Source: Pseudobutyrivibrio xylanivorans DSM 14809 (lineage in GTDB: Bacteria > Bacillota > Clostridia > Lachnospirales > Lachnospiraceae). From it: a DNA stretch of 64,000 nt. The stretch spans positions 62,001-126,000 of the forward strand of contig NZ_FQYQ01000001.1 in assembly GCF_900141825.1 (NCBI RefSeq), in the 5' to 3' direction. Below are positions 3,290-48,619 of the stretch, one piece after another. The notes below the pieces were generated by a model, which was not told where the DNA came from, did not search any database, and saw only the letters and a list, made by a program, of their open reading frames with translations. How positions within the stretch are numbered: position 1 is the first letter of the stretch; each line of letters begins with the position of its first letter. Both the position numbers and the translations under genes were made by a program.

Positions 3290-6079
3290 ATGGGTATGGG
3301 ACCAGACCGTTTAGGAGATTTTTATCCAGATTGGGTAAATGAGTTAAAAGATGAAGACCTTCGTCCAGAGATTCTTCAGCTTGGTAAGGTAATTACAGAT
3401 CGTGCAAAAATTAAGCTTGGTCTTCAGAAGATTACAAAGTACGATCCAGAGTACTGGGCAGTTGCAAATCTTGCTCCTACAAAGGAGATTGCAGAGCTTG
3501 CACTTCAGATGGGTGGCATTAGAAAGCCTAAGACATTCCAGCAGATGCTTGAAATCACAGGTCTTGATGAGAAGACTCTTGAGGAGCGTCTTGAGCAGGC
3601 TAGCTACACAGGACTTTTAGAGTGGAACTACGAGAACGAAGCTCACGAGAAGCAGTGGGTACTTCCAATGTTCGTTCCAGGTTCTGCTGAGTTTTCTAAC
3701 ATGAATCAGGATTTCCTTGCTGAGCATCCTGAGATGGGACGCTTCTTCGAGCGTATGAGCCGTCTTCCACTTGAGGGACTTACACACATGGTACCACCAG
3801 GAGGCGCTGGTATCGGTATGCACGTTATCCCAGTTGAGGAAGCTATCGGAATGGAGCAGGAAGCAATCAACCTTGAGAAGATTTCTTACTGGCTCGATAA
3901 GTACGAAGGAAAGTATGCTAAGTCACCTTGCTCATGCCGTCTTTCTAGACAGACATATGACGAGGGCTGCGCAGATGATCCTGAAGGCTGGTGTATCGCT
4001 GTTGGTGATATGGCTGACTACGTTGTTGAGACAAATAAGGGTGGCGTTTATATCACTAAGGAAGAAGCACTTGCTATCTTCAAGCAGGCTGAGGAGAACG
4101 GTTTCGTTCACCAGATTACTAATATCGATGGCGAGAACAAGATTTTCGCTATCTGTAACTGTAATGTAAATGTATGTTATGCACTTCGTACATCACAGCT
4201 TTTCAACACACCTAATATGTCGCGTTCAGCATATGTAGCTCACGTTACAGCTGAGGACTGTGTTGCTTGTGGTAAGTGTGTTGAGTCATGTCCAGCAGGT
4301 GCTGTTAAGCTTGGTCAGAAGCTCTGCAAGGCTGATGGTTCACAGGTTCAGTATCCAAAGCACGTTCTTCCTACAGAGAAGAAGTGGTCTACAGACGAGT
4401 GGGATGACGATTACAGAGACAACAATAGAATTAACTGCTATGAGACAGGTACAGCTCCATGTAAGACAGCTTGCCCAGCTCATATTGCTATCCAGGGTTA
4501 CCTTCGTATGGCAGCTCAGGGACGCTACAAGGAAGCTCTTGCTCTTATTAAGCAGGACAATCCACTTCCAGCTATCTGCGGTCGTGTATGTAACAGACGT
4601 TGTGAGGCTGCTTGCACAAGAGGTACAGTTGATGAGGCTATCGCAATCGATGAGGTTAAGCGTTTCTTAGCAGAGATGGATCTCAAGGCAGAGACACGTT
4701 ATGTTCCTAAGAAGATTGTTCCTTCACAGAAGGGCGAATTCGAAGAGAAGATTGCTATTATAGGTGCAGGTCCTGCAGGTCTTTCATGTGCTTACTACTT
4801 AGCACTTAAGGGCTACAAGCCAACAATCTTCGAGAAGAGCAAATATCCAGGTGGTATGCTTCGCTATGGTATTCCATCATTCGTACTTGAGAACAACGTT
4901 ATCGACGCTGAAATCGAAATCATCAAGGAGCTTGGTGTAGAGATTAAGTGTGGCGTTGAGGTTGGTAAGGACATCACTCTTGATGAGTTACGTAGCCAGG
5001 GTTACAAGGCATTCTACGTTGCTATCGGTTGCCAGGGTGGTAATCGTCCAAACGTACCAGGTGATGACGCAATCGGTACAGCTACAGCTGTTGATTTCCT
5101 TCACGAGTGCTCAGAGAACGAGAAGTACGATATCAAGGGTGACCTTGTTGTTATCGGTGGTGGTAATGTTGCTATCGACGTTGCTCGTTCTGCAAGACGT
5201 GTTGGTAATGAAAAGGTTTCTATGTTCTGTCTTGAGAGCAGAGACATTATGCCAGCTTCTCCAGAGGAAATCGAAATCGTAGAGGCTGAAGGCGTTGAGC
5301 TTAACTGCGGTTGGGGTCCTAAGGAGGTTCTTGTTGATGAGGCAGGAGCTGTTAAGGGAATTGTTCTCAAGAAGTGTACACGTGTTAAGGATGAGACAGG
5401 TCGTTTCTCTCCACAGTACGATGAGAATGATACAATAACAGTAGAGTGTAAGCACGTTATCTTCTCAGTAGGACAGCGTAGTGTATACGGAGACCTCTTC
5501 AAGGGTTCTAAGGTTGTTATCGAGCGTGGTCCTAAGGCTGATGCTCTTACATACCAGACAGACGAGCCAGATATCTTTGTTGGTGGTGATATGTACACAG
5601 GACCTAAGTTCGCTATCGATGCAATTGCAGCAGGTCGCGAGGGTGCAATCTCAATCCACAGATTTGTTCAGCCACATAGCTCACTTACAATCGGACGTAA
5701 TCGTCGTGATTTCATCGAGCTTAACAAGGATGATCTTCGTATTGACGATTATGATCACAGCCCACGTCAGATTCCAGGCGTATCTAAGACTACTGTTGAC
5801 GGAGAGCTTACATTCCGTGATAAGACTGTAGAGCTTACAGAGGAGCAGATTAAGGTTGAGACAGCTAGATGTCTTAAGTGTGGTGCTTCTGTTGTTGATG
5901 AGAATAAGTGTATCGGTTGTGGTGTATGTACAACCAAGTGCGAATTCGACGCTATCAAGCTTTACAGAGAACATCCAGAGTGCTCTAAGATGACTCCTTC
6001 AGAGGATAAGCTTAAGTATGTGCTTCCATATGGATTAAAGCAGCGTATAAAAGTTACCTTCAAGGGTGGTCGTAAATAA
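3290..6079 (+). CDS. Large Fe-S/FAD NAD(P)-dependent oxidoreductase (GltD/NfnB-like core)
   Basis: A cytosolic 929-residue redox enzyme. The N-terminal ~200 residues are unassigned. Next comes a Cys-rich segment (CSCR at ~214, GWC ~233, CNCNVNVC ~288) and a ferredoxin motif CVACGKCVESCP (~324). A GltD-type Fe-S segment with ICGRVCNRRCEAAC is followed by an FAD site GAGPAGLSC (~492), a second dinucleotide site GGGNVAIDVARS (~623) and a C-terminal ferredoxin motif CIGCGVCTTKC (~874). The GltD/NfnB family passes electrons between NAD(P)H and ferredoxin or a partner subunit. No GltB or NfnA partner is seen. AAAGGAGG precedes the ATG. The codon use looks optimised, suggesting strong expression. 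The true substrate cannot be read from sequence. Confidence 0.8.
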   Translation: MGMGPDRLGDFYPDWVNELKDEDLRPEILQLGKVITDRAKIKLGLQKITKYDPEYWAVANLAPTKEIAELALQMGGIRKPKTFQQMLEITGLDEKTLEERLEQASYTGLLEWNYENEAHEKQWVLPMFVPGSAEFSNMNQDFLAEHPEMGRFFERMSRLPLEGLTHMVPPGGAGIGMHVIPVEEAIGMEQEAINLEKISYWLDKYEGKYAKSPCSCRLSRQTYDEGCADDPEGWCIAVGDMADYVVETNKGGVYITKEEALAIFKQAEENGFVHQITNIDGENKIFAICNCNVNVCYALRTSQLFNTPNMSRSAYVAHVTAEDCVACGKCVESCPAGAVKLGQKLCKADGSQVQYPKHVLPTEKKWSTDEWDDDYRDNNRINCYETGTAPCKTACPAHIAIQGYLRMAAQGRYKEALALIKQDNPLPAICGRVCNRRCEAACTRGTVDEAIAIDEVKRFLAEMDLKAETRYVPKKIVPSQKGEFEEKIAIIGAGPAGLSCAYYLALKGYKPTIFEKSKYPGGMLRYGIPSFVLENNVIDAEIEIIKELGVEIKCGVEVGKDITLDELRSQGYKAFYVAIGCQGGNRPNVPGDDAIGTATAVDFLHECSENEKYDIKGDLVVIGGGNVAIDVARSARRVGNEKVSMFCLESRDIMPASPEEIEIVEAEGVELNCGWGPKEVLVDEAGAVKGIVLKKCTRVKDETGRFSPQYDENDTITVECKHVIFSVGQRSVYGDLFKGSKVVIERGPKADALTYQTDEPDIFVGGDMYTGPKFAIDAIAAGREGAISIHRFVQPHSSLTIGRNRRDFIELNKDDLRIDDYDHSPRQIPGVSKTTVDGELTFRDKTVELTEEQIKVETARCLKCGASVVDENKCIGCGVCTTKCEFDAIKLYREHPECSKMTPSEDKLKYVLPYGLKQRIKVTFKGGRK

Positions 6080-8136: not shown

Positions 8137-8167
8137 AGGAACTTAGTTTATTGCTAAGTTCCTTTTT
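8137..8167 (+). terminator. Rho-independent terminator
   Basis: A perfect 10-bp stem, AGGAACTTAG (8137-8146) with CTAAGTTCCT (8154-8163), has a 7-nt loop and a following T-run. It ends the XRE regulator transcript. Confidence 0.9.
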
Positions 8168-8189
8168 CTTCATCTAGCTTGTTACATTG

Positions 8190-8265
8190 TATATGGCCTT
8201 GGCTCTAGTCAAGAGCAAGCCCTGCGGGGACTCTGTCCTCTTGACTAGGTGCCCGCAGCCATATA
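8190..8265. repeat. 76-bp imperfect inverted-repeat element
   Basis: The outer arms TATATGGC (8190-8197) and GCCATATA (8258-8265) enclose perfect inner arms CTAGTCAAGAG (8205-8215) and CTCTTGACTAG (8238-8248). The tip is GC-rich. There is no T-tract or ORF. It could be a small MITE-like element or a structured RNA. Confidence 0.5.
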
Positions 8266-8296
8266 AAAAGTAATCAAGCCGGCTGAAGAAAGCGGT

Positions 8297-8313
8297 CTGT
8301 GGCGTTGCCACAG
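8297..8313. repeat. Short hairpin upstream of array A
   Basis: CTGTGGC (8297-8303) and GCCACAG (8307-8313) form a 7-bp perfect stem with a 3-nt loop. It lies between the 76-bp inverted repeat and the palindromic array. Function unknown. Confidence 0.35.
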
Positions 8314-8352
8314 TGCATATCAAAGATAAAAAAATGCACAAATATATCAACT

Positions 8353-8612
8353 ATGCATCCCTAGATAGACAAAATCATTTACGGGATGCACGGAAATTGT
8401 TTTCATTTTAGAAAAATGCATCCTAAATGAGAATTTCTAACTTTTGGGATGTATTGGTAAATTTTAAATGCATCCCCAATAAGTGAACTATACATTCAGG
8501 TTGCATTAGTAGGCATCCCAAAATCATAAAACATACTTCTGGGATGCATAATACAAAAATTATATCGAAAATTATGCATCCCAAAGGGTTGAAACTGACA
8601 TTTAGGATGCAT
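8353..8612. repeat. Array A: five 39-bp inverted-repeat units, no adjacent nuclease gene
   Basis: Five units each have a left arm like ATGCATCCC, about 21 nt of variable AT-rich sequence, and a right arm like GGGATGCAT. Units are 8353-8391, 8416-8454, 8468-8506, 8511-8549 and 8574-8612, all 39 bp long. Spacers between units vary from 4 to 24 bp. The third right arm (AGGTTGCAT) and fourth left arm (AGGCATCCC) are the most decayed. The arms match those of array B at 15484-15784. The array lies between convergent genes and no nuclease gene is next to it. Confidence 0.9.
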
Positions 8613-8663
8613 AGTTTAGTAAAATCCCTGTTTTAGTAGGATATGATATTTCTAGCAGGTTGA

Positions 8664-8699
8664 AACCAAAAAGAGACTCAGCCATAAGCTAAGTCTCTT
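8664..8699 (-). terminator. Terminator of the minus-strand gene cluster
   Basis: AAGAGACT (8671-8678) pairs with AGTCTCTT (8692-8699). On the minus strand a T-run follows (the A-run at 8667-8672 on the plus strand). It lies just downstream of the cytidylate-kinase-like gene. Confidence 0.8.
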
Positions 8700-8714
8700 C
8701 AACAAAATCAATAT

Positions 8715-9317
8715 TTATTCTGGAAATGCTCCTGCAAGTTCGCAGATTGTCTTTACACACATTTCCTCTCCAAGTGTTCCGCTGTCTAAGATAACATCAT
8801 ATTCGCGGAAGTCACCCCAGTTTTTATCAGTATAGTATTTGTAATAAGTCTTGCGCTGCTTGTCTTTTTTAGCAAGACGCTTTTCAATGCTGACATTTTC
8901 GATATTTTCATATCTATCTAGAACACGTTTCTTTCTATGTTCCATATCTGCGTGAATCATTACGTTCATGCAACGAATGCCTTCTTTTCGAAGAATATAG
9001 TCAGCACAGCGTCCTACGATTACACAAGGACCTTTGCTGGCGCAATCAAGAATGACTTTCTTCTGAGCTATAAAAATCTCATCCTGTGGGCTCTGGAAAT
9101 ACATTGTACCAGCTGCAGAAATATCAAACCACATTGCTGTTGAGGAAGTATATTCACCTTGAGTTTCGATAAGCTCTTTGGCGTAGCCGCTTTCTACAGC
9201 AACTCGATTTACAATTTCCCCATCATAGAAAGGAATATTCAATTGCTTTGCAACAGCCTCCCCAATGCTATGACCACCGCTGCCAAATTCTCTAGATATA
9301 GTAATTACTGGATACAT
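8715..9317 (-). CDS. Cytidylate-kinase-like family protein
   Basis: A P-loop nucleotide-kinase fold of about 200 residues. It begins PVITISREFGSGGHSIGEAVA (Walker A-like), followed by FYDGEIV, and a lid-like RYENIENVSIEKRLAKKD. Lachnospiraceae encode several such Cmk-like proteins, often annotated as cytidylate kinase without proof of substrate. The ATG at 9317 is preferred because GGAGGG lies 6-7 bases ahead; an in-frame TTG at 9332 falls inside that SD region. It is the last gene of a five-gene minus-strand run and is followed by a terminator. Confidence 0.8.
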   Translation of the reverse strand: MYPVITISREFGSGGHSIGEAVAKQLNIPFYDGEIVNRVAVESGYAKELIETQGEYTSSTAMWFDISAAGTMYFQSPQDEIFIAQKKVILDCASKGPCVIVGRCADYILRKEGIRCMNVMIHADMEHRKKRVLDRYENIENVSIEKRLAKKDKQRKTYYKYYTDKNWGDFREYDVILDSGTLGEEMCVKTICELAGAFPE

Positions 9318-9350
9318 AGTGGTTCCCTCCAATCAATTTTCTTATCCCTA

Positions 9351-10007
9351 TTATAAAATATTTTCGGATAAAAAGTCAAAAAGAGTTACATTTGTCAGAT
9401 TATTGATTTTTCCGCCAACTGCGGCGTTTTCTCCTGAATCTCCGCATATATCCACACCAATTATTTCATGATTTGCACACAACTGGTCAAGCATTTCCAA
9501 CATAGTGGATAGTTTCATATCACCCTGATCCCAGTCGGTGATGGCATCATCCGTACACAGAACGTCCTTATCTATGGAAATATATATAGGTAAATCCTTT
9601 GAAATCTGCTCAATAGGTACTTCTTTACCCACACCATAGGTATAAACCTGCTTGAGGTGCGGAAGGCTCTCCAGGGCCTCTAAAACCCATCCTCCGCAGG
9701 AGGTAATCATGCCAAAGCTTGGAGGTTGATTGTCTGGATGATGATCAAACAGAACCAGGTTGAAATCCTCCTGTATTTTTGTAATCCATAGTAGGCTCAG
9801 ATAGTGATAGTTTCCGGAATCAATAAAGTGAATTCCATCAGCGCCAAAAGGCACAAGCCTATCTATCAGGACTTCCTTGGCAAGGTCGTCCAGATAGCAG
9901 CGTGTGCCTTCTATTGATTTGCAATCTAAAATGCAACAATCTTCAATTTTTTCGTAGAATGACTGATAATCATAAGCTTCAGTCATCTTCATCAATACGG
10001 TGTTCAT
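9351..10007 (-). CDS. Arginase/ureohydrolase-family protein
   Basis: 218 residues, shorter than typical arginases (~300). Likely metal-binding motifs are LFDHHPDNQ and ISIDKDVL, followed by DWDQGD and late VDICGDSGEN. These correspond to the DAHxD and SxDxDxxDP signatures of the ureohydrolase fold in altered form. The substrate could be arginine, agmatine or something else. The start lies 3 bases from the end of trkH, so the two are probably co-transcribed. No strong SD is visible at the ATG, so a slightly later start is possible. Confidence 0.65.
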   Translation of the reverse strand: MNTVLMKMTEAYDYQSFYEKIEDCCILDCKSIEGTRCYLDDLAKEVLIDRLVPFGADGIHFIDSGNYHYLSLLWITKIQEDFNLVLFDHHPDNQPPSFGMITSCGGWVLEALESLPHLKQVYTYGVGKEVPIEQISKDLPIYISIDKDVLCTDDAITDWDQGDMKLSTMLEMLDQLCANHEIIGVDICGDSGENAAVGGKINNLTNVTLFDFLSENIL

Positions 10008-10010
10008 ATT

Positions 10011-11519
10011 TTATTTGAAATCGTCGTTTAGTATCTTTCCTGCATGCTTTAGTTCTTTTACTTTACGCTTTGTAAACAAATCCTGCCAGATAGTAGGATG
10101 GAAGAGCATAAGTATTGGGAAGAGCTCAAGTCGTCCTGCCAACATATCAAGGATTAATATAATCTTAGATAAATCCGTATAGAATGCGAAGTTTCTTGTA
10201 GGTCCTACCAGGCTAAGACCAGGTCCGATGTTACTAAGGCAGGCAATTACCGAAGTAAATACAGTTGAAAAATCAATATTTTCAAAGGAAAGCACAAATA
10301 CGCTGACAAAGAATACTAACATAAATGTACCGAAGAAAACGTTGTTTGAACGAACTGTATCGTGAGTAACTGGTTTGCCATCCATAAGAGTTTTTCGGAT
10401 GCTACGTGGATGAATATAGCTGATAAGCTCTTTGTGTACAGCCTTTCCCATAAGAACAAAACGGGAAACCTTAATACCTCCACCTGTTGAACCAGCACAG
10501 GCTCCAATGAACATTAGAAGCACTAAAACACAACGGCTTGTCTGTGGCCACATATCAAAGTCTGTAGTTGAAAAACCAGTAGATGACTGGATAGAGGTAA
10601 CCTGAAAGGCTGCCTTAGTAAGTGCATCGAAAAGTCCAGCACTACAGCTTAGTGTGTTTAATGTGATTATAAAAATAGAGATAGCTGTAAGGAGTGCATA
10701 CATTCTAACCTCTTCCATACGGAAGGCATCTCTTGCGTGATGGAACAATACGTAGTAGTAGAAGTTGAAATTTACACCGAATACAAACATGAAAATGGCA
10801 ACTATCCACTGACATGCCACATTAAATCCACCGATACTGCTTGAGTAAATACCAAATCCTCCAGTACCTGCTGTGGCGATACCTGTATTGATAGCCTCAA
10901 ATGGAGTCATTCCTGCGATAAGAAGAAGGATGATTTCTAAGGCACATAAACCTAAATAAATAAAGTAGAGCATCTGGGCTGTGTTTTTAAGCTTTGGTAC
11001 AAGCTTTCCAACAGATGGACCAGGTGACTCAGCCTTCATAAGATTGAACTGTGAGCCCTCACCGCCGGCAAGAGGGATGATAGTAAGAAGGAATACTAAC
11101 ACTCCCATACCACCTACAAGGTGAGTGAAGCTTCGCCAAAACAGAGAAGCATGTGAAAGTGCCTCAACATTATCTAATATTGATGCTCCAGTAGTGGTAA
11201 AACCTGAAACTGTCTCGAAGACTGCGTCAACAAAATGAGGAATCTCGTTTGTGAGCCAAAGTGGAATGGCGCCAATGACTGATAATATAACCCAGGAAGC
11301 TCCAGTGCAGAAGAATCCCTCTTTAAGGTAGAAGGAAACCTCTTTTGGTTTAATCCTACTGTTGATAATACCGAGGATGAGACAAGGTACCGCTACTACT
11401 GCGTAATCTACCCAGACACTCTCGTGATATATAAGTGCTACGAAAATTGGTAGCATCAAAAATATTCCCATGAATCCTACTACGTAAAGTAGGATAAAAC
11501 GAATGACGGAATTATTCAT
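10011..11519 (-). CDS. trkH: Potassium uptake channel subunit TrkH
   Basis: A 502-residue membrane protein with four pore-like repeats, each carrying a filter segment: SGFTTTGAS, ATAGTGGFG, SSTGFSTT and SNIGPGLS. Many hydrophobic helices surround them. TrkH/KtrB proteins conduct K+ into the cell and are gated by a cytosolic RCK protein. That partner, trkA, is immediately upstream on the same strand with 7 bases between, forming a complete Trk system. Confidence 0.93.
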   Translation of the reverse strand: MNNSVIRFILLYVVGFMGIFLMLPIFVALIYHESVWVDYAVVAVPCLILGIINSRIKPKEVSFYLKEGFFCTGASWVILSVIGAIPLWLTNEIPHFVDAVFETVSGFTTTGASILDNVEALSHASLFWRSFTHLVGGMGVLVFLLTIIPLAGGEGSQFNLMKAESPGPSVGKLVPKLKNTAQMLYFIYLGLCALEIILLLIAGMTPFEAINTGIATAGTGGFGIYSSSIGGFNVACQWIVAIFMFVFGVNFNFYYYVLFHHARDAFRMEEVRMYALLTAISIFIITLNTLSCSAGLFDALTKAAFQVTSIQSSTGFSTTDFDMWPQTSRCVLVLLMFIGACAGSTGGGIKVSRFVLMGKAVHKELISYIHPRSIRKTLMDGKPVTHDTVRSNNVFFGTFMLVFFVSVFVLSFENIDFSTVFTSVIACLSNIGPGLSLVGPTRNFAFYTDLSKIILILDMLAGRLELFPILMLFHPTIWQDLFTKRKVKELKHAGKILNDDFK

Positions 11520-11526
11520 GCATTAT

Positions 11527-12915
11527 TTACCTCAATGTATCTAATATAGTTCCAAAGCCGGTGTGTGTGGTAACAACCATGACTGTATCTCCCACCTCGA
11601 TAGTGTCGGAACCGCTTGGGATAATGATTTTACCGTTACGATTAATAAAGGCAATTAAGACATTATCTTTAAACTGTAAAACTGAGAATGGAACGCCAGT
11701 AGCATTTGATTTCTCAGTAATGTTAAACTCGATGGCCTCTACCTTTCTATCAAACATATGATAGAGTGTGAGGATATCATCACCATCGCCAGATGCACTC
11801 TTGGCACGTACATAGGCGATGATTGATTCAGCTGTAATATGGCGTGGATATACCACAGAACCAAGGTTAAGCTGAGACAATACATTATCAAAACTAATGC
11901 GGTTGACTTTTGTTACAACCTTAGCATTGCTAACCTGATTTGCATAAAGTGTAAGAAGAACGTTCTCTTCATCGATTCCTGTAAGAGGAACAAAACTCTC
12001 TACGTACTCGATGCCTTCTTCACGAAGTAAAGCTTCATCACCACCATCACCATTGATAATGGTAGCCTTTGGAAGTGCAACTGAAAGCTCCTCGCAACGC
12101 TCCTTATTTCGCTCGATAATGCGTACATTAATTCGAGCCTGAAGCAGAAGATTTGCAAGGTAATAAGAAGCCTTTCCACCGCCAACGATAAGACAGTCCT
12201 TAACCTGACGAGTCTTGAAGCCGATTTCATTTAAGAAGGTACGGGCAAAACGACGTGCACCTACGGCACTGACAATATCGTTAGCCTGAAGTGTGAAATC
12301 ACCAGTAGGGATAACTATTTCAGAACCACGCTTAACAGCAGTAACAAGTACCTTACTTGAAATGTTAGAACTTAAGTCTTTAACTTTAAGACCATCGAGA
12401 ACATTTCCTTCTTCAATTTTAAACTCAACCATTTCAGCCTGACCGTGAGCAAATGAAGAAACCTCGAGCGTAGAAGGAAGAGATAAGATTGATGAAATCT
12501 CTTTTGCAGCTTCTAACTCAGGGTTAATAATCATTACAAGACCAAGCTTTTCCTGAAGGTATGAAATTTCCTTTGAGTAGTCTGGGTTTCTAACTCTGGC
12601 GATAGAAGCGCAATCACCTACCTGCTTTGCAATTGTACAGCAGAGAAGATTAAGCTCATCAGAGTTAGTAACAGCGATGATAAGATCAGCATCCTTAATA
12701 CCTGCTTCCAACTGTGTGCTGTAGCTGGCACCGTTTCCTTGGATGCCCATGATATCGTAAAGATTTGTAAGATTATCTATTCTTTCCTGTTTCTGATCGA
12801 TAACAACAATGTCATGACCTTCTTTTGAGAGTCTATCAACTAGGGTGCGTCCAACTTTACCGCATCCTACAATAATTATTTTCAGTCCTCTTTTTTGAGA
12901 CGAACTAAATAGCAT
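11527..12915 (-). CDS. trkA: Trk potassium regulator TrkA (two RCK domains)
   Basis: A cytosolic gating ring subunit that binds NAD(H) or nucleotides and controls TrkH. Two Rossmann/RCK halves are visible: the first begins KIIIVGCGKVGRTL, the second begins CLIVGGGKASYYLA. Each is followed by an RCK-C domain, including VSAVGARRFA and VMVVTTHTGF. I chose the ATG at 12915 (MLFSSSQK) because GGAGG sits upstream; an in-frame TTG at 12933 lies within that SD sequence. The SD and start follow two small hairpins in the gap from the upstream gene. Confidence 0.92.
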   Translation of the reverse strand: MLFSSSQKRGLKIIIVGCGKVGRTLVDRLSKEGHDIVVIDQKQERIDNLTNLYDIMGIQGNGASYSTQLEAGIKDADLIIAVTNSDELNLLCCTIAKQVGDCASIARVRNPDYSKEISYLQEKLGLVMIINPELEAAKEISSILSLPSTLEVSSFAHGQAEMVEFKIEEGNVLDGLKVKDLSSNISSKVLVTAVKRGSEIVIPTGDFTLQANDIVSAVGARRFARTFLNEIGFKTRQVKDCLIVGGGKASYYLANLLLQARINVRIIERNKERCEELSVALPKATIINGDGGDEALLREEGIEYVESFVPLTGIDEENVLLTLYANQVSNAKVVTKVNRISFDNVLSQLNLGSVVYPRHITAESIIAYVRAKSASGDGDDILTLYHMFDRKVEAIEFNITEKSNATGVPFSVLQFKDNVLIAFINRNGKIIIPSGSDTIEVGDTVMVVTTHTGFGTILDTLR

Positions 12916-12943
12916 TTTAAAAATTGCCTCCAAAATAATATTA

Positions 12944-12986
12944 GGAGATTACAAAATCTCCCATATGATAATTTAATCCATATGGG
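12944..12986 (-). promoter_or_regulatory. Two intercistronic hairpins before trkA
   Basis: CCCATATG/CATATGGG (12960-12967 with 12979-12986) and GGAGAT/ATCTCC (12944-12961 region) lie between the 166-residue protein gene and trkA. On the minus strand the second is followed by a T-rich stretch. They could partly terminate transcription or protect the 5' end of trkA mRNA. Confidence 0.4.
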
Positions 12987-12999
12987 GCAAAAGTTCAAG

Positions 13000-13500
13000 T
13001 TAAATCCTTACGTCTACGCGGCGCGTAATCCTTTGTGCAGCGCTATATAAATCGTTAAGATATTTGGAATCTTTATCAAAAAACTTGGAGAACTTTTCCT
13101 TCTTATAGAGTTTTGACGCAGTTTCATATACAGAAAGAGAGCCGTCTTTACCTACAGTTATTCCTATTTTTTTCAAGTCGGAAGCATATTCTGTATTTAG
13201 ATTCTTAATCTTGGATACTGCATTTTTTACGGAAGAGCTGTTTCCTGCATAGTTTGTTCCAGAATCAAGTGTATTATTTACAGCATCGGAAAATGCCTTA
13301 AGCTTTTCCTGAATCTCCGCCGCGGTACCATCTTCGAACTTGTAGTCCTGCAGTCTTCTTACAGCATTTCGAAGGGCACTTGCATCAGCAAATGAAAGTG
13401 TGCCGGCACTGGCATCTTTTCGGGTGGAACCTTTTACAAGTGCTGAATACTGTCCATAATATATTCTTAGTGAAAGAGAGTTGGTAACGCTAATACTCAT
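13000..13500 (-). CDS. Unrecognised 166-residue protein
   Basis: No family recognised with certainty. The sequence is hydrophilic and Ala/Lys/Ser-rich with a helical pattern and no signal peptide or membrane segment. A segment KKIGITVGKDGSLSVYE resembles the GI-x(3)-DGxLS phrase seen in flagellar cap/hook-associated proteins, and ASALRNAVRRLQDY could be coiled coil. It precedes trkA by about 85 bp on the same strand. A flagellin- or FliD-related fragment is possible but no flagellar gene lies nearby. Confidence 0.6.
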   Translation of the reverse strand: MSISVTNSLSLRIYYGQYSALVKGSTRKDASAGTLSFADASALRNAVRRLQDYKFEDGTAAEIQEKLKAFSDAVNNTLDSGTNYAGNSSSVKNAVSKIKNLNTEYASDLKKIGITVGKDGSLSVYETASKLYKKEKFSKFFDKDSKYLNDLYSAAQRITRRVDVRI

Positions 13501-13581
13501 ACGAAACTCCTGAAATCTAACATAGTTACATATTTCTATATACGTTATCGGATATAAAAAATTATTTATTAATATTAACTG

Positions 13582-13610
13582 TTGAAGAAAAAGGGAAAAG
13601 CATATATTAT
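13582..13610 (+). promoter_or_regulatory. Predicted guaA promoter
   Basis: TTGAAG (13582-13587) and TATTAT (13605-13610) are separated by 17 bp, about 40 bp before the SD AAAGGAG of guaA. No purine-riboswitch-like fold was found in the short leader. Confidence 0.55.
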
Positions 13611-13653
13611 ATAGGAAATTTAAATATCAATTTTAATTTCAAAGGAGCGACTA

Positions 13654-15201
13654 ATGAACCAGGAAAAAGTCATTGTTATTGACTTTGGCGGTCAGTACAA
13701 TCAGCTTGTAGCCCGCCGTGTCAGAGAATGTAACGTCTATTGTGAAATCTATTCTTATCGTACCCCGCTTGAACAAATCAAAGAAATGAATCCTAAGGGA
13801 ATCATCCTTACAGGTGGTCCAAATTCCTGCTATGAGGAGGGTGCCCCTACTTACACTAAGGAGCTTTTCGAGTTAGGAATACCTGTGCTTGGCCTATGCT
13901 ATGGTGCACAGCTTATGATGCATGTTCTTGGAGGAAAGGTTGAAAAGGCCCCAGTTCGTGAATATGGTAAGACAGAGACCTTTATTGATGGTGCTAGTGA
14001 CACTTTATTTGCAGGCGTGGAGAAATCAACTATCGTTTGGATGAGTCATTTCGATTACATCTCAAAGGTTGCTCCTGGTTTTGAGATAATTGCCCACACG
14101 GCAGACTGCCCAGTTGCAGCATCAGCATGTGAGGCAAAAAAGCTTTATGCAATTCAGTTCCACCCAGAGGTGCTTCACACTGTTCAGGGTAAGGACATTT
14201 TATTTAATTTCGTTCGTAATATTTGCGGTACAGCAGGTACATGGCGCATGGATTCCTTTGTTGAGCAGACAATCGGTGAAATCCGTGAACGCGTTGGTTC
14301 AGGAAAGGTGCTTCTTGCACTTTCAGGTGGTGTTGATTCATCTGTACTTGCAGCACTTCTTGCTAAGGCAATTGGAAAGCAGCTTACATGCGTATTTGTA
14401 GACCATGGTCTTCTTCGTAAAAACGAAGGTGATGAGGTTGAGGGTGTATTCGGTCCAGCTGGTTCATTTGATATCAACTTCATTCGTGTTAACGCAGCAG
14501 ACCGTTATTACGCAAAGCTTGCTGGCGTAGAGGAGCCAGAGCAGAAGCGTAAGATTATCGGTGAGGAATTCATCCGTGTATTTGAGGAAGAGGCGAAGAA
14601 GATTGGTACTGTAGATTTCCTTGCTCAGGGTACTATCTACCCAGACGTTGTAGAGTCAGGACTTGGCGGTGAGTCAGTAGTTATCAAGTCTCATCACAAC
14701 GTTGGTGGTCTTCCTGATTATGTTGATTTCAAGGAAATCATCGAGCCACTTAGAAACCTTTTCAAGGACGAGGTTCGTAAGGTCGGTCTTGAGCTTGGAT
14801 TGCCTGAATACCTTGTATTCCGTCAGCCATTCCCAGGCCCAGGTCTTGGTATCCGTATCATCGGAGAGGTTACAGCAGAAAAGGTTCGCATCGTTCAGGA
14901 TGCTGATTATATTTACAGAACAGAGCTTGCAGAGGCTGGCCTTGAGAAGCTTCCAGATCAGTACTTCGCAGCACTTTCAAACATGCGCTCCGTAGGTGTT
15001 ATGGGTGACGAGCGTACATATGACTACGCAGTAGTCCTTCGTGCTGTTGAGACTGTAGACTTCATGACAGCCGAAGCTTCAGAGATTCCATTCGAGGTAC
15101 TTCAGCGTGTTATGAGTCGTATCATCAACGAGGTTAAAGGCGTTAACCGCGTAATGTACGATTTGACTTCTAAGCCACCAGGAACTGTGGAACTAGAGTA
15201 A
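13654..15201 (+). CDS. guaA: GMP synthase (glutamine-hydrolysing)
   Basis: Converts XMP, ATP and glutamine to GMP, the last step of guanine nucleotide synthesis. The N-terminal class I amidotransferase has nucleophile Cys in GLCYGAQ and His in FHPEV. The ATP-pyrophosphatase domain begins with the PP-loop [12 protein letters not shown], and the C-terminal dimerisation domain ends PPGTVELE. The 515-residue length is typical. AAAGGAG precedes the ATG. A strong terminator follows, so it appears monocistronic. Confidence 0.97.
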
Positions 15202-15230
15202 AGCCAATAAAGCACAAGCCGAGTAAAAAT

Positions 15231-15282
15231 AAGCAGTCTAGTTGCGTGGATGCTTGCATCCAAAGCAGCTAGGCTGCTTTTT
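15231..15282 (+). terminator. guaA terminator
   Basis: AAGCAGTCTAG (15231-15241) pairs with CTAGGCTGCTT (15269-15279), 11 bp with one G-U. An inner helix (TGGATGC/GCATCCA) and a T-run (15278-15282) complete it. Confidence 0.88.
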
Positions 15283-15291
15283 ATTTATTGG

Positions 15292-15333
15292 GCGCCGCTA
15301 GGCGCTGGTTAGTGTGCCACGTAGTGGTGCACT
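15292..15333. repeat. Two hairpins just upstream of the nuclease promoter
   Basis: GCGCC/GGCGC (15292-15296 with 15301-15305) is followed by AGTGTGCCAC/GTGGTGCACT (15311-15320 with 15324-15333), a 10-bp stem with two G-U pairs and a GTA loop. They end 7 bases before the -35 box of the array B promoter. They may mark the left edge of the module or bind a regulator. Confidence 0.45.
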
Positions 15334-15340
15334 AAAGGGC

Positions 15341-15369
15341 TTGACATTTTATTTCACGCACGTTATATT
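15341..15369 (+). promoter_or_regulatory. Consensus promoter reading into array B and nuclease 1
   Basis: TTGACA (15341-15346) and TATATT (15364-15369) with a 17-bp spacer. The start would be near 15376. Reading through would transcribe a ~108-nt leader, array B and the nuclease gene as one RNA. The matching promoter at 47382-47410 has the same placement at the second nuclease locus. Confidence 0.75.
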
Positions 15370-15483
15370 ACTACCTATCGTTTGAAAAGTGATATAGATT
15401 TATCACTATCATGGCAAAGCTTTTCATTTCGCCAATTATTCCAAGATGAACTTTTTAGATATATTTGAGGATTTTGATGTTTT

Positions 15484-15784
15484 ATGCATCCTGTAAAGGA
15501 TATATTGCATTTCGGGATGCATACTAAATTTTAGGTCATGCATCCCAAAGGAGCCAAACTATGTTATGGGATGCATGACTATCAGATTTGATGCATCCTA
15601 AATAGATAAAAAGACTTATGGGATGCATTTTTAAGCTGAGAAGAGGGGAATAATGATGAAATTAGGGCGAAAAGCCGTAATTTATGCATCCTAAATAGGA
15701 AGAATTGACTGCTGGGATGCATAGTCAAAAAATCAAAATTATTTTATGCATCCCAAATGTGTTAAATAACTATTTGGGATGAGT
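15484..15784 (+). repeat. Array B: five inverted-repeat units in the leader of nuclease 1
   Basis: Units with arms ATGCATCC(C/T) and GGGATGCAT lie at 15484-15522, 15538-15576, 15591-15628, 15684-15722 and 15746-15784. Four are 39 bp and one is 38 bp. The middles are about 21 nt and mostly begin with A-rich sequence (AAATAG recurs). Spacers between units are 14-61 bp. The last right arm has decayed to GGGATGAGT and ends five bases before the ATG, so it overlaps the likely SD. There is no terminator between array and gene. Confidence 0.92.
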
Positions 15785-15789
15785 TATGA

Positions 15790-16605
15790 ATGAAAATGGA
15801 GGACGAGTTGAGAAATTATAAGAATGAATTAGAGGCACAACTAAAAGAGATTGAATCATTGATAACACTTAACAATAAGAATCTGGCTAGATTAAAGAAT
15901 CTGCCGGAGTTCGGTGTAAAAGCTTCAACAGCACGGGGGTGTCATCAGTATTATTTGATAGATAAGGACACTGGCAAACGTAAATACGCTTGTAAAGAGA
16001 AGCTTAAGCTTGTAAAAAAACTAATCCAAAGAGATTATGCAGTTGCAGTGGATAAAAAGTTAATAGATTTAAGAAATAGACTCGATAGATTTATTTCAAA
16101 TTATGATATAAGTGAGGTTGAAGCTTTGTATGAAAAATTGCCTACTGCTAGAAAGAGTATGGTAATTCCTGTAATAGAGCCAGATGATGTCTTTATAAAA
16201 AGATGGTATGAAGCACATCCAGGTCAACAGAATACATATCATGAAGATGGAATATATCAAACCAATCGTGGCGATATGGTTAGATCTAAATCCGAAAAGA
16301 TAATTGCAGATGCTTTGGAGAAATTTAAGATACCATACCAGTATGAACCAATGCTAGAGTTAGGGCACAACACAGTATATCCTGATTTCGTGGCTTTAAA
16401 TGTCAGAACAAGAAAGACACTATACTGGGAGCATTTGGGTATTGTTTCTGACATAGAATATGCAGCAAAGAATTTTATAAAGATACAGAATTACGAGAAG
16501 CATGGATACCTTTTAGGCAAAAACTTGATTACTACAATGGAATCAGAGGATATTCCTATTGATGTAAAGCTTGTAGAACGGAAAATAAAGGAATTTTTAC
16601 TTTAG
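15790..16605 (+). CDS. PD-(D/E)XK-like nuclease, copy 1 (array B-associated)
   Basis: 271 residues, no signal peptide. Residues ~5-35 look like a coiled coil (LEAQLKEIESLITLNNKNLARL). The middle is helical and holds PVIEPDDVF. The C-terminal ~110 residues carry RSKSEKIIA (E169), VYPDF (D199) and YWEHLG (E214), followed by KNFIK and a Y..HGYLLGKNLI segment. Glu, PD and E-x-H in this order suggest a PD-(D/E)XK-type core like those at helicase C-termini; the canonical Lys is not in the E-x-K place, so activity is inferred. It is a clear homologue of 47801-48619, most similar in the C-terminal half. GGGATGAG from the last repeat arm probably serves as SD. Function unknown. Confidence 0.8.
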   Translation: MKMEDELRNYKNELEAQLKEIESLITLNNKNLARLKNLPEFGVKASTARGCHQYYLIDKDTGKRKYACKEKLKLVKKLIQRDYAVAVDKKLIDLRNRLDRFISNYDISEVEALYEKLPTARKSMVIPVIEPDDVFIKRWYEAHPGQQNTYHEDGIYQTNRGDMVRSKSEKIIADALEKFKIPYQYEPMLELGHNTVYPDFVALNVRTRKTLYWEHLGIVSDIEYAAKNFIKIQNYEKHGYLLGKNLITTMESEDIPIDVKLVERKIKEFLL

Positions 16606-16696
16606 GTTGCCTATGCAACAAATTTAAGATTTAGTATACTAATTTAAAATGCGAACTTAGAAGAATGCATTGTATTAGATGCGTTTGGAGGGAAAA

Positions 16697-17179
16697 ATGC
16701 TAAGACTTGAGAAAATTAACGGAAAAAATGTTTGGGATATATTAAAACTATCAGTAGATGATTCTCAAAAGACTTTTGTAGCAAGTAATGAGATAAGTAT
16801 CATTGAAGCATACACAGCTATAACAGCGCATGGGTATGCCTATCCATTTGGAATCTATGAGGGGGATACCCCAATAGGATTTTTGATGATTGGATTTGAT
16901 AAGGATGATTATTGGGAAGATGCACCTGATATTGCCATAGGAAATTACAATTTGTGGCGACTGATGATAGATAAAAAATATCAGCATAAAGGATATGGCA
17001 GGCAAGCAGTAAAGCTCGCATTGGATTTCATTAAGACTTGTCCATGTGGACCAGCCGAATATTGTTGGTTATCCTATGAACCAGAGAATCAAATCGCAAA
17101 AGAGCTGTATGCATCCTATGGATTTGTTGAGACTGGGGATATGGATGGGGAAGAGCTTATAGCAGTTTTAAAAATATAG
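16697..17179 (+). CDS. GNAT-family N-acetyltransferase
   Basis: About 160 residues with the acetyl-CoA site in YNLWRLMIDKKYQHKGYGRQAV (R/QxxGxG/A type) and a late ENQIAKELYASYGFVETG segment. It resembles spermine/spermidine or diamine acetyltransferases (PaiA/BltD group). I chose the ATG at 16697 because GGAGGG lies just ahead; an in-frame ATG at 16679 would place that SD inside the gene. It follows nuclease 1 by about 90 bp in a patch of small accessory genes. The substrate is unproven. Confidence 0.82.
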   Translation: MLRLEKINGKNVWDILKLSVDDSQKTFVASNEISIIEAYTAITAHGYAYPFGIYEGDTPIGFLMIGFDKDDYWEDAPDIAIGNYNLWRLMIDKKYQHKGYGRQAVKLALDFIKTCPCGPAEYCWLSYEPENQIAKELYASYGFVETGDMDGEELIAVLKI

Positions 17180-17294: not shown

Positions 17295-18077
17295 TTGAAC
17301 GAATATAGTCTACAACATAAAAAGGCGTGGGAGTTTGATGCATATGATTTTTGGGTAAGAACCGCCGGGACTCCGGAGGAAAGAGCATCAAAGGATAAAG
17401 AAAACCCCAGGAAGATGCTAAAGCAGTATGCGAACTACTTTGATTCTTTTGAAGGCGTCAAGGTAGCTAATATCTGCGGATCCTGTGGCAAGAAAGCAAT
17501 TCCGCTGGCTCTTTTGGGAGCAGAGGTTACAGTATTTGATATATCCGAAGCCAATAAGAAATATGCTATGGAAACAGCTGAGGCTGCAGGCGTAAACATT
17601 GGCTATGAAGTTTGTGATATCATGGAAATCGATATGGACAAGTATGCCGGCTTTTTTGATGTTGTCTTTATGGAGGGTGGAATCCTTCATTATTTCCACG
17701 ATATAGATGTTTTTATGAATGTTATGAACGGATTGCTTAAAACCGGTGGAAAGATGATCTGTAGTGACTTCCATCCATTTACTAAGATTTCCGATATACT
17801 TGAGCTGCAGCAGCCAACCATGAGTTATTTCTCAACAGATATATTTGAAGGTGAGATGGCGCACGCAAGATTTTACGATGAGGAGATCCGTAAGCAGATC
17901 CCTAAATGCCATTACAGGAAGTACACAATCAGCGAGATTATCAATTCTATCATCGGGAACGGATTTACTTTGGAGCGTTTTGATGAGCATCCTTCATGGG
18001 AGAACGAGAAACTTCCGGGAGAGTTTACTGCAATTGCAAAAAAAGATATGAAAGGCGCAGATAAATGGTTGGCTTAA
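17295..18077 (+). CDS. Class I SAM-dependent methyltransferase
   Basis: 260 residues. The SAM-binding strand/loop is VANICGSCGKKAIPLALLGAEVTVFDIS, shifted from the usual GxGxG to GSCGKK. EVCDIMEID and DVVFMEGGILHYF follow as the second acidic and post-motif strands. The substrate is unknown; small-molecule or ubiE-like methylation is possible. A TTG start at 17295 follows AGGAGGAAGG. The gene overlaps folA by 13 bases, so the two are likely translated together. Confidence 0.8.
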   Translation: MNEYSLQHKKAWEFDAYDFWVRTAGTPEERASKDKENPRKMLKQYANYFDSFEGVKVANICGSCGKKAIPLALLGAEVTVFDISEANKKYAMETAEAAGVNIGYEVCDIMEIDMDKYAGFFDVVFMEGGILHYFHDIDVFMNVMNGLLKTGGKMICSDFHPFTKISDILELQQPTMSYFSTDIFEGEMAHARFYDEEIRKQIPKCHYRKYTISEIINSIIGNGFTLERFDEHPSWENEKLPGEFTAIAKKDMKGADKWLA

Positions 18078-40068: not shown

Positions 40069-41091
40069 ATGTCAAAGTACACAATGATCAGCCCTGAGGT
40101 ACCAAATGTTCCATGGCAGGACAAGCCAGCTAATTTAGTTGGTGCGCCAATCTGGAGATATGATGAAAATCCTATTATCGGACGTAATCCACTTGAGGGT
40201 GTTGCTAGAATATTCAACAGTGCAGTAATGCCATATGGTGATGAGTTTATCGGTGTGTTCAGAGGTGAGCAGACAAATGGTATTCCATACATTTATCTTG
40301 GCCATAGCAAGGATGGTATTAATTGGACTTTCGAGACTGAAAAGATTCCATTTGTGGATGAAGAAGGAAATTCTTTCATGCCAAAGTATGCTTATGACCC
40401 TCGTCTTGTAAAGGTAGAGGATGCATACTATATCATTTGGTGCCAGGATTTTTATGGAGCATCTATTGGTATTGCAAAGACAACAGATTTCAAGACCTTT
40501 GTGAGACTTGAAAACCCATTTATCCCATTTAACAGAAATGCTGTTTTATTCCCAAGAAAGATTAATGGCAATTATGTAATGCTTTCACGTCCATCTGACA
40601 GCGGACACACACCATTCGGTGATATTTTCCTTAGCGAAAGCCCAGACCTTGTATATTGGGGAAAGCATAGACATGTAATGGGTAGAAATGATAAGTGGTG
40701 GCAGTCATTAAAGATTGGTGGCGGTGCAGCTCCAATCGAAACATCTGAAGGCTGGTTGCTTTTCTATCATGGTGTTACAGGAACCTGTAATGGATATGTA
40801 TATTCAATCGGTGGAGCTATTCTTGATATTGATAATCCTTCAAAGGTTAAGTATCGTTGTGAGAATTTCCTTCTCACTCCAGAAGAGTGGTATGAAGAGC
40901 GCGGATTTGTTCCAAATGTTTGTTTCCCATGTGCAACAATACATGATTCAAAGACAGGCAAGATTGCTCTTTACTATGGAGCTGCAGATAGCTATGTAGG
41001 TCTCGCATTTACAAATCTTGATGAGATTATTGATTACATCAAGGACCACAGCGTTGTAACAGAAGAAGATACCGAAATCGGTATAAGATAG
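40069..41091 (+). CDS. GH130 mannooligosaccharide phosphorylase
   Basis: 340 residues with WRYDENPIIGRNP, YDPRLVKVED (catalytic Asp region), FYHGVTGTCNGYVYSIGGA and LYYGAADSYVGLA. This fits GH130 subfamily 2, which shortens beta-1,4-mannooligosaccharides by phosphorolysis from the non-reducing end. It saves ATP by making mannose-1-phosphate directly. It works with the neighbouring GH130 and the mutase at 45636. Confidence 0.88.
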   Translation: MSKYTMISPEVPNVPWQDKPANLVGAPIWRYDENPIIGRNPLEGVARIFNSAVMPYGDEFIGVFRGEQTNGIPYIYLGHSKDGINWTFETEKIPFVDEEGNSFMPKYAYDPRLVKVEDAYYIIWCQDFYGASIGIAKTTDFKTFVRLENPFIPFNRNAVLFPRKINGNYVMLSRPSDSGHTPFGDIFLSESPDLVYWGKHRHVMGRNDKWWQSLKIGGGAAPIETSEGWLLFYHGVTGTCNGYVYSIGGAILDIDNPSKVKYRCENFLLTPEEWYEERGFVPNVCFPCATIHDSKTGKIALYYGAADSYVGLAFTNLDEIIDYIKDHSVVTEEDTEIGIR

Positions 41092-47513: not shown

Positions 47514-47765
47514 TACGCTCATGGAGCACAAAATAGCGTTTATGCGCGTAGGTATTGCAAGCCTGGACATGCCTTACTACGCGCGTAGCGCTGGAAATTG
47601 AGCTGGTGAGCGTAGTCGGAGGGATGGCTATAGGTAAGAAAGTTGCTTTATTAATGAATGGCTACGCTTACGAACATAGAAAAATTTATGCATGAGCGTA
47701 AGCAGGTTGATTCACAATGTAGATTACTACGCTTATAGATAGTAAAAAGCATGCTTATGCGCGTA
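47514..47765 (+). repeat. Array C: four inverted-repeat units in the leader of nuclease 2
   Basis: Units with arms like TACGC(T/G)(C/T)AT and ATG(A/C)GCGTA lie at 47514-47550, 47578-47614, 47663-47700 and 47728-47765, lengths 37, 37, 38 and 38 bp. Middles are 19-20 nt and variable; spacers are 27, 48 and 27 bp. The arms differ fully from ATGCATCCC of arrays A/B, but unit length, arm length and position are alike. A short frame open across this stretch is not believed to be a gene. Confidence 0.88.
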
Positions 47766-47800: not shown

Positions 47801-48619
47801 TTGGTAGAACAGAAGGAAATATTGGAAGATTATAGGGAAAAATTGGAAAGACAATTGCTTCTTATCAAAAGTTTGATAGCCAAGGTGAGAAAGAATCTCT
47901 CTAGAATGGAGGATGTGCCGGATTGTTGGATTAGGATTGGCAAGAGCAATGGTAGTACGCAGTATCGTTTGGTGGACAAGCAGACTAATGAGAGCAAGTA
48001 TGTGAAATCGAATGATGTCCCAAAGCTTAGGAAGATAGCTCAAAAGCAATATAATCAGGAGGTTTACAAGGAATTAATAAAAAATCAAAGTGTCATTGAG
48101 AAGTTCCTGAAGAACTACGATGTTCATAAAATACATCAAACCTATAACAAAATGGCAGAGGGCCGAAAGATACTTGTAACTCCAATTATAGAGACGGATG
48201 ATTTGTATAGAGAGAATTGGTTGGATGATGACTATGCATCGATGCCATTTTTTGACGAAACAGAGTTTTATACAAATAATGGTGTGCGCGTCAGGTCTAA
48301 ATCCGAACTGATTATAGCCAACCTTTTGGAACAGTACGATATTCCCTATAAGTATGAAAAAACATTGGAATTGGAAGGAATGGGGAAGGTGCGTCCTGAT
48401 TTTATTTGTTTAAACACAAGGACACATCAGGAATATGTATGGGAACATTTTGGTATGATGGACAATGCTGATTATGCTAATAAGAACGTGGCAAAGTTGA
48501 ATTGTTACCAGCAGAATGGGTTTTATCCTGGGGGTAATATGATTGTTTCTTTTGAGACATCAACACAGCCAATTAGTTCTAAGAATATCCAAAATGTAAT
48601 AGAACAATATTTAAATTGA
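47801..48619 (+). CDS. PD-(D/E)XK-like nuclease, copy 2 (array C-associated)
   Basis: 272 residues, a homologue of 15790-16605. It has the same coiled-coil start (LERQLLLIKSLIAKVRKNLSRM), TPIIETDDLY in the middle, and RSKSELIIA (E169), VRPDF (D200) and VWEHFG (E215) in the C-terminal half. Identity is concentrated around those motifs; the N-terminal third is much more divergent, which would fit different DNA or RNA specificities. TTG start with AAGGAG 7 bases upstream. The stop is one base from the NUDIX pseudogene start. Function unknown. Confidence 0.8.
   Translation: MVEQKEILEDYREKLERQLLLIKSLIAKVRKNLSRMEDVPDCWIRIGKSNGSTQYRLVDKQTNESKYVKSNDVPKLRKIAQKQYNQEVYKELIKNQSVIEKFLKNYDVHKIHQTYNKMAEGRKILVTPIIETDDLYRENWLDDDYASMPFFDETEFYTNNGVRVRSKSELIIANLLEQYDIPYKYEKTLELEGMGKVRPDFICLNTRTHQEYVWEHFGMMDNADYANKNVAKLNCYQQNGFYPGGNMIVSFETSTQPISSKNIQNVIEQYLN

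Follow-up and report, generated by a model that had tools for sequence, protein, structure and literature searches.

Helically phased inverted-repeat arrays, probable DNA docking sites, upstream of a family of predicted two-domain nucleases in Pseudobutyrivibrio and its relatives

Introduction

Why should the gene for a predicted nuclease lie directly behind a row of five inverted-repeat units? This question is raised by positions 15341-16605 of the window, a term used here for the whole 64,000-nucleotide stretch of Pseudobutyrivibrio xylanivorans DNA that was analyzed. The initial annotation had suggested that units and gene form a possibly undescribed module, with the units serving either as paired DNA sites for a dimeric protein or as RNA hairpins resembling those of type III toxin-antitoxin loci. 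As described below, that interpretation as a whole is partly supported. The explanation that we favor, with a probability of roughly 60%, is that the gene encodes a site-specific dimeric nuclease that docks on its own phased array and probably represses itself through it. In the portions of the open-licence literature that were available, no description of a nuclease combined with an array of its own was found for this unnamed family, in keeping with the earlier suggestion of novelty.

Results and Discussion

The locus and the arrays of the window

Listed here are the features of the nuclease locus and of the two other arrays in the window, neither of which had been noted in the initial annotation.

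15341..15369, + strand: sigma-70-type promoter of the nuclease locus, TTGACA-17-TATATT (11 of 12 consensus matches)
15412..15434, + strand: putative leader hairpin TGGC...GCCA, followed by TATTCC (sequence reading)
15484-15784, no strand: gene-linked array of five inverted-repeat units (reading of the sequence and pattern scan)
15484-15522 and 15538-15576: units 1 and 2 of the gene-linked array
15591-15628: unit 3 of the gene-linked array, 38 bp
15684-15722 and 15746-15784: units 4 and 5 of the gene-linked array
15790..16605, + strand: two-domain predicted nuclease gene, open reading frame from ATG 15790, 271 codons
15798..15802, + strand: Shine-Dalgarno sequence GGAGG, serving the probable start codon TTG 15808
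8353..8612, no strand: orphan array with the same arms as the gene-linked array and no adjoining nuclease gene (pattern scan)
8353-8391, 8416-8454, 8468-8506, 8511-8549 and 8574-8612: units of the orphan array
47514..47765, no strand: third array, arms TACGC..GCGTA, upstream of a paralog (motif-guided, by eye)
47514-47550, 47578-47614, 47663-47700 and 47728-47765: units of the third array
47813..48613, + strand: paralogous two-domain nuclease gene, 37% identical to the query

A scan of the window with a 39-bp pattern, allowing up to three mismatches, yielded 10 matches versus 0.46 expected from shuffled sequences, and the row of five units reported previously in front of the gene is confirmed. 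Four of the matches are gene-linked units (the 38-bp unit at 15591-15628 falls outside the pattern and was not counted), five belong to the array at 8353-8612, and one is a weak stray at 40388. The last arm of the unit at 15746-15784 is imperfect (GGGATGAGT). Dyad-to-dyad spacings are 54, 52.5, 93.5, and 62 bp in the gene-linked array, 63, 52, 43, and 63 bp in the orphan array, and 64, 85.5, and 65 bp in the third array, which is degenerate and was missed by the automatic unit scores.

The consensus promoter recognized earlier is indeed present, and its hexamers and spacing also occur 5' of many genus members, a conservation that is convincing by eye only. Likewise, it was correctly stated that no terminator separates array and gene: the sole terminator-like site within 15200-15830, at 15262-15280, lies upstream of the promoter. 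Leaders containing TGGC..TCGCCA and then TATTCC or TTTTCC (window 15412-15439; L020-L049, L218, and others) are shared by a subset of paralogs with different arms, and this hairpin is a possible RNA control element.

The predicted protein

The open reading frame does comprise 271 codons, as originally given, but the protein itself is probably ~265 residues long because the Shine-Dalgarno sequence points to TTG 15808 as the true start. This TTG is kept in a 94% identical ortholog (L019). Among 70 loci with an assignable Shine-Dalgarno sequence the starts are 43 ATG, 20 TTG, 1 GTG, 5 ATA (L010, L034, L039, L046, and L119), and 1 ATT (L047); the rare start codons may hold the nuclease level down.

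The AlphaFold model has a pLDDT of 94 (93 for the arm alone). Helices 11-34 and 69-104 form a coiled-coil arm, at the end of which lie the strands 41-48, 51-58, and 64-66. The C-terminal half following the arm is modeled as a restriction-endonuclease-like domain of the PD-(D/E)XK type. The motifs first noted as E169, PD199, and E214-H hold up well: Arg 165-Ser 166-Lys 167, Glu 169, Pro 198-Asp 199, and Glu 214-His 215 are invariant in 45 of 45 aligned family members, the query included, all of which had been picked as intact frames. Note that the third motif is E-H rather than E-x-K. A conserved acidic active site on a restriction-endonuclease-like core, as characterizes the PD-(D/E)XK superfamily, was thus found in the model.

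Structural matches of the nuclease half include TnsA (Z 8.2 over 112 residues, 3.3 Å), Bax1 (7.5), and Can2 (7.0). A Z-score near 8 is middling, yet several independent nucleases of the restriction-endonuclease-like fold are among the matches, and the nuclease-like C-terminal fold expected from the initial annotation is supported by the model. T7 endonuclease I gave a weak sequence match to the same half (E 0.016). The protein thus resembles TnsA, Bax1, Can2/Card1, and T7 endonuclease I in its C-terminal half, but to our knowledge none of these carries a coiled-coil arm, a reading tip, or an array of its own sites. Neither the whole model nor the arm had PDB matches at E 0.001 or better. The arm is without a clear solved relative (Foldseek best E 0.13), and what it matches structurally are for the most part generic coiled coils, Rad50 and prefoldin among them. 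On the basis of topology, the tip sheet was considered to be possibly of the arm type or of the dsRNA-binding type. The query is left unnamed by Pfam, NCBIfam, and PHROGs.

Distribution of the family and of its arrays

The two-domain family is present in many rumen bacteria, and among the genomes examined here the two-domain form was observed in Lachnospiraceae only. The window genome, hereafter G000, contains nine family loci (10 matches, one locus being split). The split paralog, G000:C56:104874-105643, has a frame break and is a decaying copy. Matches were found in at least 28 of 29 genomes of the genus, which is taken to be Pseudobutyrivibrio because named relatives are as much as 94% identical, with up to 11 in each among the matches listed; most, not all, of the listed genus matches were examined (80, plus others as search loci). 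At E 1e-10, matches are present in 64 of 200 Lachnospiraceae genomes, and in no fewer than two of these (G054 and G101) only the nuclease half occurs, in proteins of more than 1,100 residues. From a phylum sample, 13 of 398 genomes match, five of them Lachnospiraceae and the eight others with the nuclease half only. One scan gave at least 562 relatives, the best 80 of which were kept. Plasmid records provided nine partial matches, eight inside annotated AAA ATPases or helicases and none covering 80% of the protein. Three matches came from phage records, one of which covers 83% of the query and lies on an unannotated faecal contig. Nine matches to viral contigs are limited to the nuclease half, and arrays are absent from them.

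With a mismatch-tolerant score, at least four units were detected upstream of 115 of 156 non-redundant members, versus 1/156 shuffled sequences and 0/156 coding controls; the homologs do, for the most part, carry the upstream arrays that had been anticipated. At least three units precede 137 of the 156 members (shuffles 13, coding 14), and fewer than four were detected in 41. For this count, 47 of 257 loci were dropped, having less than 450 bp upstream or no near full-length two-domain frame, and then 54 near-duplicates were removed at 90% identity. A stricter, exact method required a 6-mer and its reverse complement to recur ~30-50 bp apart within 600-700 bp upstream. It yielded at least three units in 80 of 118 loci of the first set (shuffles 0/118, coding 0/118) and in 47 of 88 loci of the second set (shuffles 0, coding 0, downstream 3/88), a set that includes the nine viral nuclease-only matches and from which L197 was dropped for having less than 150 bp upstream. 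Family-wide, the exact method detected at least three units at 20 of 34 two-domain loci (shuffles 0, downstream 3/34), after removal of L226 and L229 (short upstream regions), of eight loci with the nuclease half alone, and of six that duplicated loci of G000. In all four counts the shuffles were single per locus. Some members score zero units; among these, inspection by eye shows a degenerate array at L012 and none at L016.

The arrays contain from 3 to 13 units. Their arm sequences differ between subfamilies, the types being ATGCATCC, TACAGT, TACGGA, TACGTG, TACTAC, TTACCAC, GACACG, TTAAGT, CATATAATTTT, and others. The last dyad is no more than 200 bp from the start codon in 142 of 148 arrays. 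When the 300 bp next to unit 1 were scanned, a consensus promoter was found in 35 of 101 clusters versus 16 of 53 controls, which is no family-wide enrichment, and thus the placement of the array between promoter and gene is demonstrated for part of the family only. At L013, L078, and L083 the arrays begin just after the upstream gene and, by eye, without a good promoter match; there the nuclease may be read from the upstream operon.

Spacing of the units

The initial annotation described a fixed unit length and variable spacers. The former stands; the spacing does vary, but in steps of one helical turn. Dyad-to-dyad distances fall at multiples of 10.5 bp (42, 52.5, 63, 73.5, 84, 94, and 105), with rare exceptions. 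Indeed, in 81 arrays the 427 spacings shorter than 120 bp, longer ones having been left out, occupy the classes 42-43, 49-54, 61-65, 72-74, 83-86, 93-97, and 104-105, and the gaps between these classes are empty. Array detection imposed no condition on spacing.

For a Rayleigh test, 142 arrays from both sets and the family-wide search were grouped at 90, 60, and 50% identity into 101, 71, and 42 clusters with 150, 104, and 66 spacing classes, respectively. One value was taken per spacing class per cluster, spacings of 125 bp or more were omitted, and 6 of 148 arrays were left out for lack of an intact protein. The maximum occurs at 10.5 bp with a phase near zero (0.1 at 50%), and the values of nR2 are 111.9, 75.0, and 47.2. 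Without the modal 48-57 class they are still 48.9, 34.2, and 22.2 (36 classes at 50%). Off-phase spacings are represented by the classes of 89 and 124 bp in the wider set and by single ones such as 55 bp. The degenerate arrays of two other paralogs of the window genome display spacings of 63/84.5/64.5 and 61.5/62.5/84/62. Orphan arrays have the same spacing classes and, in addition, an eleventh-turn class of 114-115 bp; their long pairs outside the classes measure 138.5, 156.5, 165, 165.5, and 167 bp.

Judged from the sequences, the spacing is the helical phasing of B-DNA, as sites on one face of the DNA would need. We know of no reason for RNA elements to be spaced by helical turns. Since the units lie whole turns apart, the array most likely consists of DNA docking sites rather than RNA.

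Conservation within the arrays

In 17 orthologous array pairs the arms had changed at 23 of 1499 positions (1.5%), versus 360 of 1924 (18.7%) in the unit middles, 449 of 2764 (16.2%) in the spacers, and 39 of 430 for the two bases inside the arms. Pairs that were poorly aligned or outside 2-35% array divergence had been left out and the arms labeled from one member; arm conservation is somewhat favored in this comparison because both members of each pair were pre-selected as array-bearing. From this pattern of change, selection is seen to keep only the arms and the distances. With respect to guide arrays of the CRISPR/TIGR type, the middles of orthologs diverge through point changes, and no faster or slower than the spacers do.

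These data bear upon the RNA branch of the original interpretation, in which the units of a module like type III toxin-antitoxin would form hairpins with 9-bp stems and 21-nucleotide loops that bind and inhibit the nuclease. In ToxIN loci, as in the present one, a nuclease-type gene is preceded by repeats of ~36-39 bp. The array is downstream of the promoter with no terminator before the gene, its strand is purine-rich while the 150 bp upstream are not, and a hairpin is common to some of the leaders. Furthermore, mismatches in the arms are more often G-U (147) than A-C (80), and in the core the numbers are 78 versus 40, with 73 transversions. This excess counts modestly against pure DNA reading unless mutation of the transcribed leader is strand-biased. 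Against the RNA branch are the helical-turn spacing, middles that drift as fast as the spacers, and the existence of gene-less arrays that are phased too, one of them inverted between sister species. Unlike in ToxIN, the spacing is helix-linked, the middles are unconserved, orphan arrays exist, and no toxin family was matched: neither the query (Pfam, NCBIfam) nor the 45 members (Pfam at E 0.01) gave a ToxN/CptN/TenpN-type match. A search of window 8200-16700 against Rfam, with E-values up to 1 allowed, gave no match. Phasing and middle drift were judged to outweigh the unexplained G-U excess, which points the other way, and RNA structure was rejected as the main reading; the RNA module is very unlikely.

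The tip of the arm tracks the half-site among close relatives

Shared half-sites were compared with sequence identity for 97 representatives (4656 pairs). At a nuclease identity of at least 80%, none of 23 pairs with tips less than 50% identical share a half-site, versus 25 of 25 pairs with tips at least 50% identical. The 25 pairs come from seven groups. All 23 trace to a single group of ten proteins, whose arms are ATGCATCC, TACAGT, and TACGGA, and two or three exchanges may therefore lie behind them. Because the pairs of this test are not independent, our confidence in the best explanation is slightly lowered. AUC values of 0.90 (tip), 0.74 (helix 2), 0.63 (nuclease domain), and 0.60 (helix 1) were obtained from the 247 pairs with a nuclease identity of at least 60%, and in a sliding window half-site tracking peaks at residues 35-57. 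A rank correlation across all 4656 pairs yielded next to nothing, and over all distant pairs tip similarity was no useful predictor of half-site similarity, which is a crude score (partial Mantel 0.039, a value reached in 43 of 500 permutations). Thus it is among close relatives that the β-sheet tip (residues ~35-57) is, by sequence comparison, the part that tracks the arms. A comparison of L022 and L032 reveals 33-50% identity up to about residue 140 and 90-100% thereafter, with arms of ATGCATCC versus TACAGT, and on these alignments the pair is one example of a tip/nuclease swap.

In 79 array-bearing genus loci, a half-site is shared in 1 of 121 within-genome pairs versus 194 of 2960 between-genome pairs, and none of the 121 within-genome pairs are 60% identical or more. 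The low-identity bins are by themselves no proof that shared half-sites are avoided within a genome.

A model for the nuclease and its array

Taken together, the phasing, the conservation of the arms, and the tracking by the tip argue for the branch of the initial annotation in which the units are paired dimer sites recognized as DNA. In the model that we favor, the N-terminal coiled-coil arm would carry the three-stranded sheet, which would read a half-site of ~6-8 bp, often starting with TAC or TGC. Two subunits would sit on a unit, one on each of its convergent half-sites, which are separated by ~31 bp (three helical turns), placing the nuclease domains over the unconserved middle of the unit. 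As neighboring units are whole turns apart, the dimers would lie on one face of the DNA and could pack cooperatively. The array is located between promoter and start codon here and near the start codon almost everywhere, and self-repression is thus the most likely consequence. We infer that in the resting state bound protein would be kept on the array, in effect stored, and that the nuclease would attack other DNA, invading DNA for example, once levels or conditions change. Autorepression leaves the orphan arrays unexplained, such as those of the TACAGT type in G000, for which no matching nuclease was found in that genome.

A precedent for part of this arrangement is provided by the controller (C) proteins, which have a self-control role in restriction-modification systems; self-control would be expected here as well. 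As is predicted for the units of the present array, their sites are paired, bound by dimers, and located 5' of a nuclease gene. C.Csp231I (PMC4321490) is one such protein. Here, in contrast, the nuclease itself is the predicted binder, there are 3 to 13 units per array, and no DNA methylase was recognized beside the gene, none of the ten neighboring open reading frames matching a DNA-methylase family at E 0.001.

A wider proposal, which we offer tentatively, is that these proteins constitute a new nuclease class with an exchangeable DNA-reading tip. They would be natural dimeric FokI-like cutters whose specificity is altered when a single small sheet domain is exchanged, and the phased array next to each gene would spell out that specificity. 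On the arrays, orphans included, the enzymes would assemble into a packed filament that is inactive or self-repressing, and the several specificities per genome would serve as a diversified defense or element-control system. A putative DNA-reading domain without a clear solved relative is found beside its likely sites in 101 non-redundant array-bearing members, and since these are from many genomes a recognition code could be derived directly. Also raised are the questions of what a nuclease gains from an array of sites for itself and how its own genome escapes cutting.

A possible role in defense

The favored model is compatible with, and not opposed by, a more specific reading in which the array stores or represses an enzyme directed against phage or plasmid DNA, the paralogs being a diversified arsenal. 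A match with an E-value of 5e-30 links the C-terminal 130 residues to the end of the PADLOC profile PDC-S68, a candidate phage-defense protein. The homology extends over positions 1089-1218 of 1221, the final part of the profile alone, and there was no full-length match. Whereas PDC-S68 is large (a profile of ~1,220 positions, matched at its end only), the family under study is two-domain and ~265 residues long, and so the match amounts to one shared domain. The invariant catalytic residues, the occurrence of matches in nearly every genome of the genus, and the absence of closely similar paralog pairs within a genome (the 0 of 121 given above) also speak for defense. The surroundings of the locus do not: the ten neighboring open reading frames are mostly of ordinary metabolic, transport, and regulatory families, namely TrkA, TrkH, cytidylate kinase-like, GNAT acetyltransferase, generic methyltransferase, DHFR, MazG, GDSL hydrolase, MatE, and LacI regulator. 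PADLOC reported only the methyltransferase (mad2 domain, partial match, E 3e-16) and a weak E1-E2 match. The former corresponds to the following feature.

17295-18077: generic class-I SAM methyltransferase open reading frame (Pfam Methyltransf_25, Methyltransf_11, and weak UbiE)

By Pfam and PADLOC scans the surroundings are no defense island. From the PDC-S68 match and the spread of specificities a role in defense is plausible, and the reading built upon it is a tentative possibility.

Arrays without a gene

Twenty of 29 genus genomes contain the motif TGCATCC-N(21-27)-GGATGCA (reversed control 0). Two or more units are present in 17 of the 20 regions examined around these matches and a single unit in the other three, one of these inside a large open reading frame. 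Orphan arrays are mostly intergenic. TACAGT-type units gave 12 matches in G000 versus 1 in the control, one of the 12 being a stray that recurs in all six genomes searched, and no nuclease with TACAGT arms was found among those of G000. The TACAGT-type arrays in G000 are as follows.

C28:147356: TACAGT-type array
C56:182489-182762: TACAGT-type array
C56:187412-187634: TACAGT-type array

In L335 (G003), one of 13 further orphan regions, a TACAGT array at 2317-2584 is accompanied by a distant family member at 4326-5054; with that gene ~1.7 kb from the array, the term orphan is loose in this case. The notion that orphan arrays are relics of lost nucleases was rejected, as a tblastn search of 45 proteins against 21 regions, the window's included, produced one match at E 0.006.

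Two further readings are affected by these arrays. The first casts the nuclease as an enzyme that cuts or mobilizes its arrays in the manner of REP elements and their RAYT transposases, the orphans being offspring of the gene-linked array. Pairs of REP elements and RAYT genes are known as REPtrons (PMC2817692). In both cases a palindromic repeat private to the gene accompanies it, and additional copies are dispersed in the genome. Arrays with the same arms occur at several loci per genome, some of them adjoin a shared dispersed repeat, and the counterpart intergenic site in G001 lacks the orphan array of the window, which G020 carries inverted with the same spacings. TnsA, moreover, the top-scoring fold match of the nuclease half, is a transposition nuclease. 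The orphan arrays hint at mobility, which the initial annotation had raised together with homing. On the other hand, the protein has no Y1 (HUH) transposase match in Pfam at E up to 10 and has the residues and fold of a PD-(D/E)XK-type nuclease instead of the Y1 transposase of REP/RAYT systems; the units, unlike REP elements, lie in helically phased arrays with a half-site tracked by a swappable tip. Two TACAGT-type arrays of G000 have counterparts at matching positions in G028, with similar spacings, which indicates stable inheritance; the window locus and its ortholog both follow guaA; and 80% coverage of the protein was reached by no plasmid record and by one unannotated faecal phage contig. 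A REP/RAYT-like role is quite unlikely.

The second is that the arrays are chromosome-organizing or regulatory sites, bound so as to regulate neighboring genes or fold the chromosome, with nuclease activity being secondary. The phasing of the orphan arrays, their mostly intergenic location, and the two at corresponding places in G000 and G028 are in its favor. No conserved cargo next to orphan arrays was evident by eye, however, the neighboring open reading frames differing from array to array, and none of the 45 aligned members, picked as intact frames, departs from the invariant catalytic site. This reading is doubtful, and docking of the nuclease on its own array remains the preferred explanation.

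The block at 8305-8654, which holds the orphan array of the window, is as a whole missing in G001 and inverted in G020, with flanks otherwise conserved, and is possibly an invertible or mobile segment. A dispersed repeat of ~170 bp (window 8163-8333; L333 2235-2405) adjoins orphan arrays of both the ATGCATCC and the TACAGT type.
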